This document shows, in pieces, positions 26,684 through 30,811 of a stretch of 64,000 nucleotides of DNA. Both the position numbers and the translations under genes were made by a program. A model generated the notes under the pieces. That model ran no database searches, was not told the origin of the DNA, and saw only the letters and a program-made list of their open reading frames with translations. Position 1 is the stretch's first letter. Each line of letters opens with the position of its first letter. Where the stretch lies: the NCBI GenBank assembly GCA_024640505.1, contig JAHEEV010000004.1, positions 1-64,000 of the forward strand. Reading direction: 5' to 3'. This DNA is from Halieaceae bacterium (GTDB lineage Bacteria > Pseudomonadota > Gammaproteobacteria > Pseudomonadales > Halieaceae).

Positions 26684-28825
26684 ATGGGGTTATCCGCAAA
26701 AATTTTCCTCGGCCTGATCGCCGGTATTGTCACCGGGCTGTTTTTCGGTGAAATGGTAGCCGGGCTCAGGGTGTTCGGCGATATCTTTATCAAGCTGCTG
26801 CAGATCACGGTCCTGCCCTACATTATAGTGTCCCTGATCGCCGGCTTCGGCCGTCTGCAGATGGAACAGGCCCGTCGCCTGGCCGTGCGGGGGACCCTGG
26901 TGCTCCTGGTGATATGGGGGCTGGCGCTGGCCCTGATTTTCCTGGCTGCCCTGGCTTTCCCGGAGATGGACACCGCTTCCTTTTTCAGCAGCTCCTCCGA
27001 ACACTCGACGGAACAGCCTGACCTGTTCGAGCTCTACCTGCCGGCCAACATTTTCTATTCACTGTCGCACAATCTCGTACCGGCGGTGGTGTTGTTCAGC
27101 ATACTGGTCGGGGTGGCGCTGATTTCGGTGGAGGACAAAAGCGGCGTGCTGCCGGTCTTCGACAGCCTGGCGACAGCCATGAGCCGGATCAACGCCGCCA
27201 TCGTACAGCTCACCCCCTACGGTATCTTCGCTATCGCCGCGGCGGCTGCCGGCACCATGACCATCGAGGAGATCGGCAGAGTTCAGGTCTACCTGGTCAC
27301 TTATATCAGTCTGGCCCTGCTGACCACCTTCTGGATCTTCCCGGGTCTGGTAGCTGCGGTCAGTGGCATCTCCTACCGGGAGGTATTGCGTACCTTCCGC
27401 GACGCGCTGGTGACCGCTTTCGCTACCGGCAACCAGTTTGTGGTGCTCCCGCAGATCGCGGAGAATTGCAAGGAATTGCTGCGGCGACACCGCGTCGAGA
27501 GCGGCGAGGTCGAGTCGGCGGTAGACATCATCGTGCCGGTTTCCTTCAACTTTCCGTCACTGGGCAAGTTACTGGTACTGCTCTTCGTGCTCTTTGCTGC
27601 CTGGTTCACCGATACCGGGCTGAGTGGGCCGGAGCGTCTCTCCCTTGCGTTTAACGGTCTCTTCAGCCTCTTTGGCAGCATCAACGTGGCGGTGCCCTAC
27701 CTGCTCGATTCCCTGCGGATTCCTACCGACATGTTCCAGCTGTTCCTGGTTACCGGCATCGTGGTGGGTCGTTTCGGTGCCATGCTCGCCGCACTGCATA
27801 TCATCGTGCTCAGCGTCATCGGCACCCTGGCTCTCGCCGGCGCGCTGCAGCTGCGCAGTGCTGCGATTATTCGCTATCTCGCGATCAGTGCGGTATCCAT
27901 GCTGTTACTGGTGCTGGGTCTGCGCTCTTATTTTCACCATTTCGTACCGGACCCCCCGGCGCGCGATGAAGTGCTGTCCGGTATACAGCTGATGCAGCAG
28001 CGGGTGCCGGCGCGCGTGTCGGACGTGCTGCCGGAGGCCCTGCCTGCCAAGCTGGCGGGCGCCAGGCTGGATCATATTCTAGAGACCGGAGTGCTGCAGG
28101 TCGGCTACCGTCCCGCGAATCTGCCCTGCAGCTTCCTGACCGACGGCGGTGACCTGGTGGGATTCGACGTGGAGATGGCGCACATTCTGGCGGAAGATTT
28201 TCGGGTGGAGCTGGAATTCGTGCCCTTCAAGTTCGATACCCTCGGGGCCATGCTGGATTCCGGGCAGATCGATATCGCGATGTCCTGCATCGCCAGCCTG
28301 CCCGATCGCTATGCCCAGGCGTCTTTTTCCCGCCCCTACCTCGATCTGCGGCTGGCCCTTATCGTCCGCGATCATGAACGGCAACTGTTCGCCGATCCGG
28401 ACGCGCTGCTCGCGCGCAAGGACCTGACCATCGCGCTGGTGAGCAGCCATTACTTCGCATCCAGGCTGCGGCGGCTGCTGCCGGAGGCGCGCATTGTCGA
28501 ACTCGGTGGGGCCGAGGAATTCTTCACCGGTGCCGGGCAGGAGGCTGACGCCCTGCTGCTCTCCGCCGAGGAGGGGGCGGCTTACACGTATCGCTATCCT
28601 CGCTATGTCGTGGTCCACAGTCGCAGTAATGTCCGCCTGCCCGCGGCCTATGCCGTGCCCAAGGGAGATATAGAAACCATGCAAGTGATCAGCAACTGGA
28701 TCGACCTCAAGCGCAATGACGGCACGATCGACGCGCTTTACGATTACTGGATGCTGGGCGGCGCATCGCGCCCGCGGGAGCCGCGCTGGTCGATCATCCG
28801 CAATGTGCTGGGCTGGGTTGACTGA
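26684..28825 (+). CDS. DAACS-like (SDF) symporter fused to a periplasmic solute-binding domain
   Basis: A 713-residue fusion. Residues 1-390 follow the dicarboxylate/amino acid:cation symporter fold (KIFLGLIAGIVTGLFFGE; ANIFYSLSHNLVPAVVLFSILVGVAL; LTPYGIFAIAA). Residues 393-418 are one more hydrophobic segment (YLAISAVSMLLLVLGL), and about 463-695 form an SBP_bac_3-type domain (ILETGVLQVGYRPANLPCSF, GFDVEMAHILAEDF, GQIDIAMSCIASLPDR). The extra helix would put the binding domain in the periplasm. The hallmark NMDGT and DxxRTxxN motifs of glutamate/aspartate carriers are not recognisable: the corresponding areas read VSFNFPSLGKL and VVGRFGAMLAAL. The substrate therefore cannot be predicted. Confidence 0.85.
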   Translation: MGLSAKIFLGLIAGIVTGLFFGEMVAGLRVFGDIFIKLLQITVLPYIIVSLIAGFGRLQMEQARRLAVRGTLVLLVIWGLALALIFLAALAFPEMDTASFFSSSSEHSTEQPDLFELYLPANIFYSLSHNLVPAVVLFSILVGVALISVEDKSGVLPVFDSLATAMSRINAAIVQLTPYGIFAIAAAAAGTMTIEEIGRVQVYLVTYISLALLTTFWIFPGLVAAVSGISYREVLRTFRDALVTAFATGNQFVVLPQIAENCKELLRRHRVESGEVESAVDIIVPVSFNFPSLGKLLVLLFVLFAAWFTDTGLSGPERLSLAFNGLFSLFGSINVAVPYLLDSLRIPTDMFQLFLVTGIVVGRFGAMLAALHIIVLSVIGTLALAGALQLRSAAIIRYLAISAVSMLLLVLGLRSYFHHFVPDPPARDEVLSGIQLMQQRVPARVSDVLPEALPAKLAGARLDHILETGVLQVGYRPANLPCSFLTDGGDLVGFDVEMAHILAEDFRVELEFVPFKFDTLGAMLDSGQIDIAMSCIASLPDRYAQASFSRPYLDLRLALIVRDHERQLFADPDALLARKDLTIALVSSHYFASRLRRLLPEARIVELGGAEEFFTGAGQEADALLLSAEEGAAYTYRYPRYVVVHSRSNVRLPAAYAVPKGDIETMQVISNWIDLKRNDGTIDALYDYWMLGGASRPREPRWSIIRNVLGWVD

Positions 28826-28912: not shown

Positions 28913-30811
28913 ATGCGCCCTGTCTCTCGATTCGTTTCGTTCCTGATTTTCCTGTCACTGTCCATCAGTGCCCTGGCCGCGGATTACGATGTCCGCACGG
29001 ATTCCCGGATAGTGGCGTTCGGCGATGTACACGGTGCCTACGACGATTGGGTGGCCATGCTGCGTGAGCTCGGCGTGGTGGATGGCGATCTGAACTGGAG
29101 CGGCGGTGACACACACCTCATCTCCCTGGGCGACCTGATCGACCGGGGCCCCGGCTCCCGCTCGGTGGTGCAGCTGATGATGAAGCTCGACCGGCAGGCT
29201 GAAAAGGCGGGTGGCGCGGTGCATATGGTCCTGGGTAATCACGAGGTCATGGTGATGACCGGGGCCCTGAACTATGTGTCCCGGGAGGAGTTTGCCGCAT
29301 TCGCCGCCGATGAGAGCGGGGCCGACCGGGAGTCACTCTACGCAGAGTACCGTCGCTTCAATCCCGGGGGTGACGAGGCGGCGGCCCGCAGTCGATTTGC
29401 AGACCAGTACCCCTCCGGTTTCCTCGCCCTGCGCAAGGCCTACTCCCGCGAGGGCGAATTGGGACGATGGCTCCTGGAACAGCCCTTCATTCTCAAGGTC
29501 AATGACAAGGTCTATATGCACGGTGGGATATCCGGCCCCCTGGCCGGCGAAACCATTGCTGACCTGAACAGCCGGCTGAAGAGCGAGCTGTCCGCCTACC
29601 TCGAGGACATGGACGCCTTGCGCGATGCCGGCGTCATGCCCTGGCATGTCTCCTTCGATGATCACCTCGGGTTTCTCAATGCCCGGGCGGAAGAGTTCGC
29701 CGCGGCCAACCCGAAGGTGCAGGCCGACTGGTTCGAACCGCTCAAAAACGTCTTCGAAGCCCAGAAAGCCCTGTTGTTCAACCAGCGGGAAAATCCCTTC
29801 TGGTACCGTGGCACGGCCTACTGTCACCCCTATTCGGAGTCGTTCAATACCGAGCGTTTTCTCAAGCGCGCCGGGGCGAAGCAACTGGTCGTCGGCCATA
29901 CCCCGGTTCGCGGCGAGGTCTACCAGCGGATGGAGGGGCTGGTGCTGCGCCTGGACAGCGGCATGCTGAAGAGCGTCTACAATGGCCTGGCTACTGCCCT
30001 GGTTTCCCAGGGCGGCAGGGATTATATCCACTACCTTGGCAGCAGTGAGCAGCGGCAACCACTGGCAGAGCCGCGCAGTCTGGCCTATGCCCTCTCCGGT
30101 ATGAACGATGAGGACCTCGAGGAATTCATGCGCACTGCACCGATCGTGGAGGTGCGGGATATCGGCACCGGAGTCACCAAGCCCAAGCGCGTGACGCAGC
30201 AACGCGGTGATGTAAGCAACGATGCGGTATTCAAATACCACGACAGCCAGCCTGGAATGGAGTCCAAGGCCAAGTACATTGCACGGCAGTATAATGAGGC
30301 CGATCGTTATATCTATGACGTGGCCGCCTACAAACTGGATCGCATGCTGGATCTGCAGATGGTCCCGACCGCCGTGCTGGCGGACGTAGAGGGGGATGCC
30401 GGGGCACTGTCCGACTGGATCGAGAACGCCATCAACGAGCGGGACCGGCTGGAGCAGAAGTTGCCCTTTGACAGTTACTGTCCCCAGTGGGAGCAGTATC
30501 GCCTGCGCTTCGTGTTCGACATCCTTATTCATAATGATGACCGCAACCTGACGAACCTGCTGTGGACCCGCAAGGGCAACTACCTGAGGTTCATCGACCA
30601 TACGCTGGCCTTTCGCACCACAGAAAAACGGCCTAAACAGTATCGCAAGGTGGATGTTGAGGTCTCCGATCTGCTGGCCTCGAAGCTGGAGTCCCTCACT
30701 GAGGAGAACCTGCGCCGGGAATTGTCTCCCTATCTCCATCCACGGCAGATCGATGGCGTAATAGCGCGGCGCGACCTGATCCTCAAGGAAGCCGTGCGGA
30801 GCGCGAAATAG
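28913..30811 (+). CDS. Secreted PPP-family phosphatase fused to a PI3/4K/FAM20-like kinase-fold domain
   Basis: A 632-residue protein with a signal peptide (residues 1-22) and two catalytic-looking domains. The N-terminal domain is a calcineurin-like/PPP phosphoesterase close to Shewanella-like phosphatases: GDVHG 37-41, GDLIDRG 73-79, GNHE 108-111, HGG at 203 and VGHT with H329. The C-terminal part looks like an atypical kinase fold: K441 in AVFKYHD, an alpha-C-like helix (YDVAAYKLDRMLDLQMVP, 468-485), a catalytic-loop-like HNDDRNLTN (540-548) and a metal-loop-like FIDH with D562. Both halves keep their key polar residues, so both could be active. Opposing phosphate chemistry in one periplasmic protein is unusual. 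The kinase assignment is by motif pattern only. Confidence 0.75.
   Translation: MRPVSRFVSFLIFLSLSISALAADYDVRTDSRIVAFGDVHGAYDDWVAMLRELGVVDGDLNWSGGDTHLISLGDLIDRGPGSRSVVQLMMKLDRQAEKAGGAVHMVLGNHEVMVMTGALNYVSREEFAAFAADESGADRESLYAEYRRFNPGGDEAAARSRFADQYPSGFLALRKAYSREGELGRWLLEQPFILKVNDKVYMHGGISGPLAGETIADLNSRLKSELSAYLEDMDALRDAGVMPWHVSFDDHLGFLNARAEEFAAANPKVQADWFEPLKNVFEAQKALLFNQRENPFWYRGTAYCHPYSESFNTERFLKRAGAKQLVVGHTPVRGEVYQRMEGLVLRLDSGMLKSVYNGLATALVSQGGRDYIHYLGSSEQRQPLAEPRSLAYALSGMNDEDLEEFMRTAPIVEVRDIGTGVTKPKRVTQQRGDVSNDAVFKYHDSQPGMESKAKYIARQYNEADRYIYDVAAYKLDRMLDLQMVPTAVLADVEGDAGALSDWIENAINERDRLEQKLPFDSYCPQWEQYRLRFVFDILIHNDDRNLTNLLWTRKGNYLRFIDHTLAFRTTEKRPKQYRKVDVEVSDLLASKLESLTEENLRRELSPYLHPRQIDGVIARRDLILKEAVRSAK

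Follow-up and report, generated by a model that had tools for sequence, protein, structure and literature searches.

A secreted PPP phosphatase joined to a FAM20-like kinase-fold domain in a Halieaceae bacterium, and its association with TLC/NTT transporter genes

The fusion protein and its closest described relatives

FAM20 kinases, namely the casein kinase FAM20C, the xylosylkinase FAM20B and the pseudokinase FAM20A, act outside the cytosol and carry several conserved disulfides. They are treated as an animal family in the available text of FAM20 papers (e.g., PMC5865150). The accessible part of a study of the Legionella kinome cites FAM20 as an example of a eukaryotic-/Metazoa-specific cluster and places some Legionella families together with FAM20/CotH (PMC9758233), and CotH is presented as an atypical bacterial kinase resembling Fam20C in the portion of a review that is available (PMC12189002). 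Because of this grouping and of the likening of CotH to Fam20C, it is already known that bacterial proteins can resemble FAM20. Here we analyzed a gene for a secreted PPP phosphatase/FAM20-like kinase fusion in a marine bacterium of the Halieaceae (GCA_024640505.1; 4.17 Mb, 257 contigs). It is located at 28913..30811 on the + strand of a stretch of 64,000 nucleotides, bases 1-64000 of contig 97 (JAHEEV010000004.1), which is called the window below. The secretion signal, both folds, the conservation of the catalytic sets, a recurrent joining of kinase and phosphatase and an association with TLC transporters were supported by computation. It is in our judgment an even call that the protein is an exported enzyme with two activities, phosphorylating and dephosphorylating an extracytoplasmic target with ATP supplied by a TLC/NTT exchanger. 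The architecture and its neighborhood are new to us, within known protein families, and no description of a kinase/phosphatase/TLC set was found in the literature searched, outside which lay most subscription journals and all bioRxiv preprints.

The fusion reported in a preliminary description of the window was confirmed. One frame from ATG to TAG encodes 632 residues, and every PPP and kinase-half motif named there was found in it. The N-terminus MRPVSRFVSFLIFLSLSISALAA is signal-peptide-like (Sec type; judged by eye), in agreement with the export signal claimed earlier; by the same reading the signal peptide comprises residues 1-22 (28913..28978, + strand), with cleavage near ALA/A. The PPP metallophosphatase domain occupies residues 31-377 (29003..30043, + strand), with GDVHG starting at residue 37, GDLIDRG at 73, GNHE at 108, HGG at 203 and VGHT at 327. 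The FAM20-like kinase-fold domain, assigned by profile and structure comparison, occupies residues 393-632 (30089..30808, + strand). It contains AVFKYHD (start 438) with K441, the beta-3 lysine equivalent (30233..30235, + strand), the segment from D464 to the alpha-C acid D469 (30302..30319, + strand), MVP (483), the catalytic loop HNDDRNLTN (540) with D543 and N548 (30530..30556, + strand) and the metal motif FIDH (560) with D562 (30590..30601, + strand). An antisense frame at 29333-30739 (468 residues) had no Pfam match at E 0.001 and was taken as a shadow of the fusion gene.

Motifs and fold support the assignment of the N-terminal half as a PPP metallophosphatase, and metal-dependent activity is predicted. 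Pfam Metallophos matched residues 32-332 (E 2.1e-13), and the predicted model aligned with the Shewanella cold-active phosphatase 1v73 at Z 30.3 over 273 residues, with a root-mean-square deviation (rmsd) of 2.6. Both the five-motif set and the PPP fold of the preliminary description were thus recovered. The closest solved phosphatases (1v73, 2z72, 2zbm) carry protein-tyrosine phosphatase titles. The likeness amounts to 29% identity over 273 residues; the Shewanella chains (331-338 residues) correspond to the phosphatase half only, and the kinase half is unmatched.

With the AlphaFold2 model of the whole fusion (29-row alignment; predicted local distance difference test, pLDDT, 91.9; predicted TM score, pTM, 0.88), VIA-align listed phosphatases only and no kinase, and the kinase domain was therefore folded alone. 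This model, based on 104 rows, had a pLDDT of 94.7. VIA-align of the kinase domain returned PI4K-II-beta at Z 18.7 (rmsd 3.8, 223 residues aligned) and Hydra Fam20 with sugar at Z 18.6 (rmsd 3.2, 221 aligned), followed by zebrafish Fam20C (17.9), human Fam20C (17.8), Fam20A (16.4), CtkA (15.2), HipT (12.5) and CotH (10.8). FAM20 and PI4K-II thus tie by structure score for the predicted model. All of the first 20 Foldseek rows were FAM20 chains. The kinase fold claimed for the C-terminal half was borne out by this confident model and its kinase matches.

When the 104-row profile was compared with all PDB sequences, it matched FAM20A (1.9e-11), FAM20C (3.8e-9), zebrafish Fam20C (1e-8), Hydra Fam20 (1.5e-8; an entry named glycosaminoglycan xylosylkinase) and C. 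elegans Fam20 (1.6e-6; a golgi casein kinase entry). After six FAM20 sequences (1.9e-11 to 1.6e-6), the next family was PI4K-II at E 0.011. A PI4K lipid kinase was set aside as less likely, since its structural tie goes with a far weaker sequence match. The preliminary description had left PI3/4-kinase, HipA, FAM20 and CotH as candidates; among them FAM20 was nearest by profile and Foldseek, HipT and CotH scored lower, and PI4K-II kept its tie by VIA-align.

The FAM20 residue set was matched by the ion-pair lysine K441, the beta3-alpha3 loop acid D464, the catalytic D543 and the metal aspartate D562, whose FAM20 equivalent is a metal ligand. The roles of the lysine, the loop acid and the catalytic Asp follow the available text of PMC5865150. 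In the profile alignment, D464 falls on a FAM20C glutamate that is Gln in FAM20A. According to the available text of Zhang et al. (2018, PMC5865150), this acidic residue is important for FAM20C activity. In the Hydra enzyme the position is an Asp, ion-paired with Lys133, and the Gln of FAM20A is given there as part of the reason why that protein is a pseudokinase.

The Pfam family HipA_2 (PF20613) passed its curated cut-off of 27 (29.4 bits for the whole protein, 31.6 for the domain), but the match spans about 45 residues round the catalytic loop. PI3_PI4_kinase stayed below the cut-off (E 0.026). Fam20C (PF06702) gave no match with the domain of the window at E 0.1, and among 104 relatives 33 reached E 0.1 or better (best 2.9e-4). 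A Fam20C search over 149 genomes of the phylum Acidobacteriota found none, with the positive control also silent. Because the domain had no Pfam Fam20C match at E 0.1 and passed the HipA_2 cut-off, it is named FAM20-like on sequence grounds and not a FAM20 member. The protein lies outside FAM20 in the strict sense but most probably works like FAM20 kinases, which are its nearest solved relatives by profile and Foldseek. It shares with them a predicted place of action outside the cytosol and equivalents of the ion-pair lysine, the acidic residue, the catalytic Asp and the metal Asp. It differs in being bacterial, in its length (about 240 residues vs. 349-435 in solved FAM20 chains), in being joined to a phosphatase and in the trait of conserved disulfides, C304 and C523 being the only cysteines of the whole fusion.

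HipA toxin-antitoxin kinases act in the cytoplasm and have a HipB partner. A HipA toxin kinase was set aside as less likely on account of the signal peptide, the lower structural score and the absence of a HipB-like gene directly beside the fusion, which is flanked by genes for a symporter and a zinc-binding dehydrogenase; HipB was not sought elsewhere. The spore-coat kinase CotH and CtkA share the kinase fold at their lower structural scores.

Conservation and joined, separate and degenerate forms

The nearest homologues of the fusion were Halieaceae records. Of the 41 loci retrieved from genome contigs, 24 contained homologues with both halves, and all 24 hold the kinase domain; loci were found, for example, in the marine relatives Seongchinamella, Pseudohalioglobus and Parahaliea. 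Such homologues also occur in 15/58 related genomes, a figure that includes the window's own genome and a divergent copy in genome G003. The non-redundant full-length set contained 29 sequences: that of the window, 27 at 52-68% identity and one at 34%. Alignment A1 consisted of these 29 rows and the kinase of locus L025. D543 was kept in 29/29 fusions, and K441, D464, N548 and D562 each in 28/29. The exception is L056, from the same genus, which lost K441, N548 and D562 and kept the phosphatase set. A lack of conservation of K441, D543, N548 and D562, named in the preliminary description as evidence that would tell against a kinase, was not observed, as 28 or 29 of 29 sequences keep each. On the phosphatase side, D38, H40, D74, D77, R78, H110, H203 and H329 were kept in 29/29. 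Both halves form one open frame in all 29 sequences, and a frameshift or annotation artifact was rejected. With the window included and L056 excluded, 24/28 full-length fusions had a signal-peptide-like start as defined by a home-made rule.

The gene order round the fusion is common to many of the 24 loci and suits vertical inheritance with some rearrangement; five loci share none of the tested window neighbors. Acquisition from a plasmid was rejected, as no plasmid record covered 80% of the protein; four matched part of the phosphatase half. Immediately upstream of the fusion, a gene at 26684..28825 (+ strand; Pfam) encodes a protein that combines a sodium:dicarboxylate symporter (SDF) domain with a periplasmic binding domain (SBP_bac_3). 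This co-directional symporter gene adjoins the fusion in 14 of the 24 homologous loci, although its link to the fusion is uncertain.

The kinase domain also occurs beyond these fusions. It was detected in 32/120 genomes of the window's family and in 59/297 genomes of Acidobacteriota, the phylum of the metagenome-assembled genome (MAG) of L025, with up to seven matches per genome. It was found in 2/274 genomes of a gammaproteobacterial class sample (own genome included), weakly in 4/121 genomes of Gemmatimonadota (phylum of MAG G060) and in 0/198 genomes of Bacteroidota (phylum of MAG G061). In Acidobacteriota it was either part of one chain with a secreted PPP phosphatase, encoded next to one, or encoded apart from one. 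A total of 84 loci was examined, namely L025, L056, L076, L077 and 80 wide acidobacterial regions that represent the stronger part of 150 kinase matches listed. They contained 95 kinase-domain open reading frames (ORFs), 12 of them fused to PPP, and 12 separate PPP ORFs, eight of which had a frame gap of <300 bp to a kinase ORF. Because at least six changes are required on the domain tree (a quick tree with 31/99 branches open) to account for the fused state, fusion or fission probably recurred. The stand-alone kinases, too, appear to be exported. By the home-made rule, signal-peptide-like starts were found in 67/82 stand-alone kinases vs. 120/876 control ORFs from the same loci, rates that are not strictly comparable since the control ORFs were searched in a fixed zone of 80 residues, and in 8/12 fused and 9/12 separate PPP ORFs.

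Among the 12 fused ORFs, both halves were intact by motif reading in six (L107, L109, L125, L140, L167 and L181), with L125, which is without the xGHT pattern, and L181, which has His at the K441 position, both counted as intact. The kinase was degenerate in four (L056, L076, L077 and L177), where the PPP motifs were complete except in L177 (4/5 motifs; VGHS for VGHT). In two, L108 (4923-6626) and L110 (5995-7950), the phosphatase was degenerate and the kinase set intact. Since each half can stay intact without the other, these sequences argue that both were enzymes in the parent form. Such natural variants with a single intact half are ready comparisons. L076 and L077 (G227) are paralogous fusions from a single gammaproteobacterium that belongs to another order than the window; in both, the PPP motifs are complete and the kinase loops degenerate.

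Of the domain sequences spanning at least 180 columns, 82/92 were not fused to PPP. The 104-row alignment (A3) holds 14 of 28 full-length fusions (window included) and 90 of 92 others; it omits L177:2243-2956 and L186:542-1225, whose loops are degenerate, and its counts are slightly flattering. D464 was Asp in 101/104 of its rows. In the wide family of 93 rows, including L177 and L186, D543 was present in 91/93 and D562 in 92/93; L076 and L077 fell below the 180-column filter and enter neither the 93-row nor the A3 counts. Position 441 was R in 39, Q in 26 and K in 25 of the 93 sequences. K or R at 441 was paired with D or E at 469 in 64/64, and Q with N in 23/26; the pairing was not significant by independent tree changes (one pair on starred branches, four on all). 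The 441/469 states may mark subfamilies with different chemistry.

Association with TLC/NTT transporter genes

All eight of the Halieaceae fusion-neighbor membrane proteins tested matched TLC (PF03219) above the Pfam cut-off, as did 8/9 ORFs from Acidobacteriota and Gemmatimonadota loci (L186 fails) and 3/3 further ORFs. By Pfam, these neighbor genes are TLC ATP/ADP transporters, with ATP/ADP exchange as the predicted activity. With a model built from the neighbors, a TLC ORF was found in 14 of the 24 Halieaceae loci; 13 of the 14 lie directly behind the fusion with a frame gap of <70 bp (on the opposite strand in L010), and that of L014 lies upstream. TLC ORFs were present in 12 of the 80 acidobacterial kinase loci, at varied distances. 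The architectures near the kinase comprise TLC alone, TLC with an Ig-like domain, TLC-HEAT and TLC-HEAT-cNMP, and the Acidobacteriota ORFs are mostly of the last two kinds (PF03219, HEAT_2, cNMP). Transporter, kinase and phosphatase genes are all close together in L025, L130 and L145. In L029 and L030, from Gemmatimonadota MAGs, TLC is near a weak kinase-like ORF (motifs HNDSNEGN and VDNGVAF; signal-peptide-like start in L029), and a PPP ORF follows.

The neighbor transporters belong to the NTT and NTT-HEAT proteins of free-living bacteria treated by Major et al. (2017, PMC5381601). The available text of that paper calls the roles of the fused NTT forms unknown, and the words 'kinase' and 'periplasm' have no occurrence in its main text. 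Some Halieaceae TLC proteins have a C-terminal putative Ig domain (He_PIG), e.g., L013 9209-10828 and L221 6185-7843, a form not met in the accessible part of PMC5381601. Response-regulator genes lie between the TLC and the kinase/phosphatase genes in L029 (3315-4612) and L140 (4303-4779), and L029 also has a histidine-kinase gene. On the acidobacterial contigs G565:C35 and G511:C19, four kinase-domain and three TLC matches fall within about 12 kb each.

The two families also co-occur. In Acidobacteriota, TLC was present in 59/59 kinase-positive vs. 61/238 kinase-negative genomes (Fisher 8e-29, kinship ignored). In the window's family, strong TLC matches (E<1e-100, a line chosen after viewing the match list) were found in 28/32 kinase-positive vs. 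2/88 negative genomes (Fisher 8e-21, kinship ignored). At least 16 of the 150 listed kinase matches, spread over 11 genomes, had a listed TLC match no more than 1 kb away, where chance predicts 0.65 such pairs (five TLC genes per genome; Poisson, kinship ignored). These distance counts, taken from the 150 listed kinase matches and 37 TLC matches on kinase-bearing contigs, are lower bounds, and the acidobacterial scans scored the best four (TLC) or best nine (kinase) candidates per genome. The Pfam TLC model matched 16/120 Halieaceae genomes at E 1e-5 and not the window's own genome, and the A5 profile, built from the TLC neighbors, matched 76/120; the co-occurrence result therefore depends on the A5 profile. 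The own genome gave two strong and one weaker TLC match, on contigs 76, 250 and 186.

Proposed function, alternatives and a possible second set

In the proposed mechanism, the fusion would add phosphate to, and remove it from, an extracytoplasmic protein or glycan. The FAM20-like domain would bind Mg/Mn-ATP through K441, D464 and D562, with D543 as the base in phosphate transfer, and the PPP domain would hydrolyze the phosphoester with two metals; what is known of the two families suggests both the ATP-dependent phosphotransfer and the two-metal chemistry. Because ATP is not made in the periplasm, the kinase would depend on an inner-membrane TLC/NTT exchanger that swaps cytosolic ATP for spent ADP. 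The transporter gene adjoins the kinase gene in many relatives, and the window's genome encodes transporters on other contigs. It is only from context that we infer ATP export by TLC, a common substrate for the two halves and a switch. The preliminary description had proposed a self-contained periplasmic switch and found its ATP supply puzzling. That interpretation is partly supported: export, the PPP half, the kinase-fold half and the conserved fusion hold, and 'self-contained' with respect to ATP is probably wrong, the family being tied to TLC genes by neighborhood and co-occurrence. TLC/NTT genes are a candidate answer to the puzzle.

More widely, and with confidence slightly short of an even chance, we suggest an undescribed bacterial system of reversible extracytoplasmic phosphorylation, in which NTT would deliver ATP, a secreted FAM20-like kinase would mark a protein or glycan, and a PPP phosphatase, likewise secreted and often part of the kinase's own polypeptide, would reverse the mark. 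If so, the ATP source of a periplasmic kinase would be explained, and the NTT and NTT-HEAT proteins of free-living bacteria would gain a job, the question of their role, left open in the available text of PMC5381601, becoming directly testable. It would also suggest bacterial relatives or roots for FAM20-type extracytoplasmic phosphorylation, and a bacterial secretory phosphorylation that partly parallels the one in the animal Golgi, with a FAM20-type kinase, an opposing phosphatase and a nucleotide transporter. Several observations weigh against the proposed mechanism. There is no TLC gene in the 64-kb window, and none was found in 10 of the 24 Halieaceae loci within the stretch covered. The TLC genes of the 61 kinase-negative Acidobacteriota genomes imply other TLC roles too. 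At a looser line of E 1e-10 the Halieaceae contrast falls to 30/32 vs. 46/88, and strong TLC is absent from 4/32 kinase-positive Halieaceae genomes, two of which rest on weak or partial kinase matches. The Fisher and Poisson values all ignore shared ancestry. Gln at position 441 in 26/93 sequences, one large subfamily, makes ATP use by the whole family uncertain. Finally, in the available text of PMC5381601 all functionally characterized NTTs are from parasites or endosymbiotic organelles, and uptake is described.

The kinase-fold half might instead bind nucleotides and serve the phosphatase as a regulator or scaffold, an allosteric domain in the manner of a pseudokinase. L056, L076, L077 and L177, which keep the domain without its catalytic residues beside PPP motifs (four of five in L177), and the replacement of K441 by Gln in one subfamily both fit this idea. 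We consider it somewhat unlikely, given the retention of K441, N548 and D562 in 28/29 and of D543 in 29/29 fusions, the reverse condition in L108 and L110, and a domain that is mostly (82/92) not fused to PPP. Kinase-fold enzymes with other chemistry exist, SelO and SidJ among them, and the domain might be active in a non-classical way, using another donor or transferring AMP or another group. The three common beta-3 states and a periplasm without its own ATP source would agree with this. The window's branch, however, has the FAM20-like set K441, D464, D543 and D562, and some TLC transporter is present in 30/32 kinase-positive Halieaceae genomes, so that we regard non-classical chemistry as quite improbable.

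It has equally little to commend it, in our estimate, that the genes serve the scavenging of nucleotides or phospho-compounds, the phosphatase trimming external substrates, TLC importing nucleotides and the kinase-fold half binding or salvaging them. Such a role would match the uptake described for NTT proteins in the accessible part of PMC5381601 and the symporter with a solute-binding domain that adjoins the window's fusion, but the titles of the nearest solved phosphatases name them protein-tyrosine phosphatases, and a conserved kinase set would seem hard to place in a system that is purely catabolic. The TLC association itself might be incidental, both genes tracking the same lineages or lifestyles while functionally unlinked, as the disregard of phylogeny in the co-occurrence counts and the loci without a neighboring TLC, the window's included, would allow. 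We think this unlikely, because TLC genes of differing architecture repeatedly neighbor the kinase in both Gammaproteobacteria and Acidobacteriota, and in two MAGs of Gemmatimonadota TLC lies close to weak relatives of the kinase.

A possible second set was observed on contig 250 of the own genome (L222 6238-10062), where a kinase-like protein of 475 residues (P0003), a Metallophos protein and a TLC transporter are encoded in a row. The TLC gene follows the other two, and both of these proteins have signal-peptide-like starts by eye. P0003 relatives share the layout FK..VP..DRxGN..NDND and were found in 6/140 family genomes, own included. A gene similar to that for the contig-250 Metallophos protein adjoins the P0003 relative in 5/6 genomes; within the stretches covered, TLC is near it only in the own genome. 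As single sequences, P0003 and a further protein, P0002, had no match with the kinase profile. A six-row P0003 profile (A6) matched the FAM20-like profile in the catalytic-loop region with 79% probability (E 1.6e-5), and it matched no solved kinase. The contig-250 set is therefore a lead, not proof. P0002 (376 residues; L225 8692-9819) matched no PDB entry, and no Pfam family passed the cut-off; it is encoded between TLC and a kinase-degenerate fusion, and its motifs FMIGNTDWS and PFDLDMSG recall an atypical kinase.

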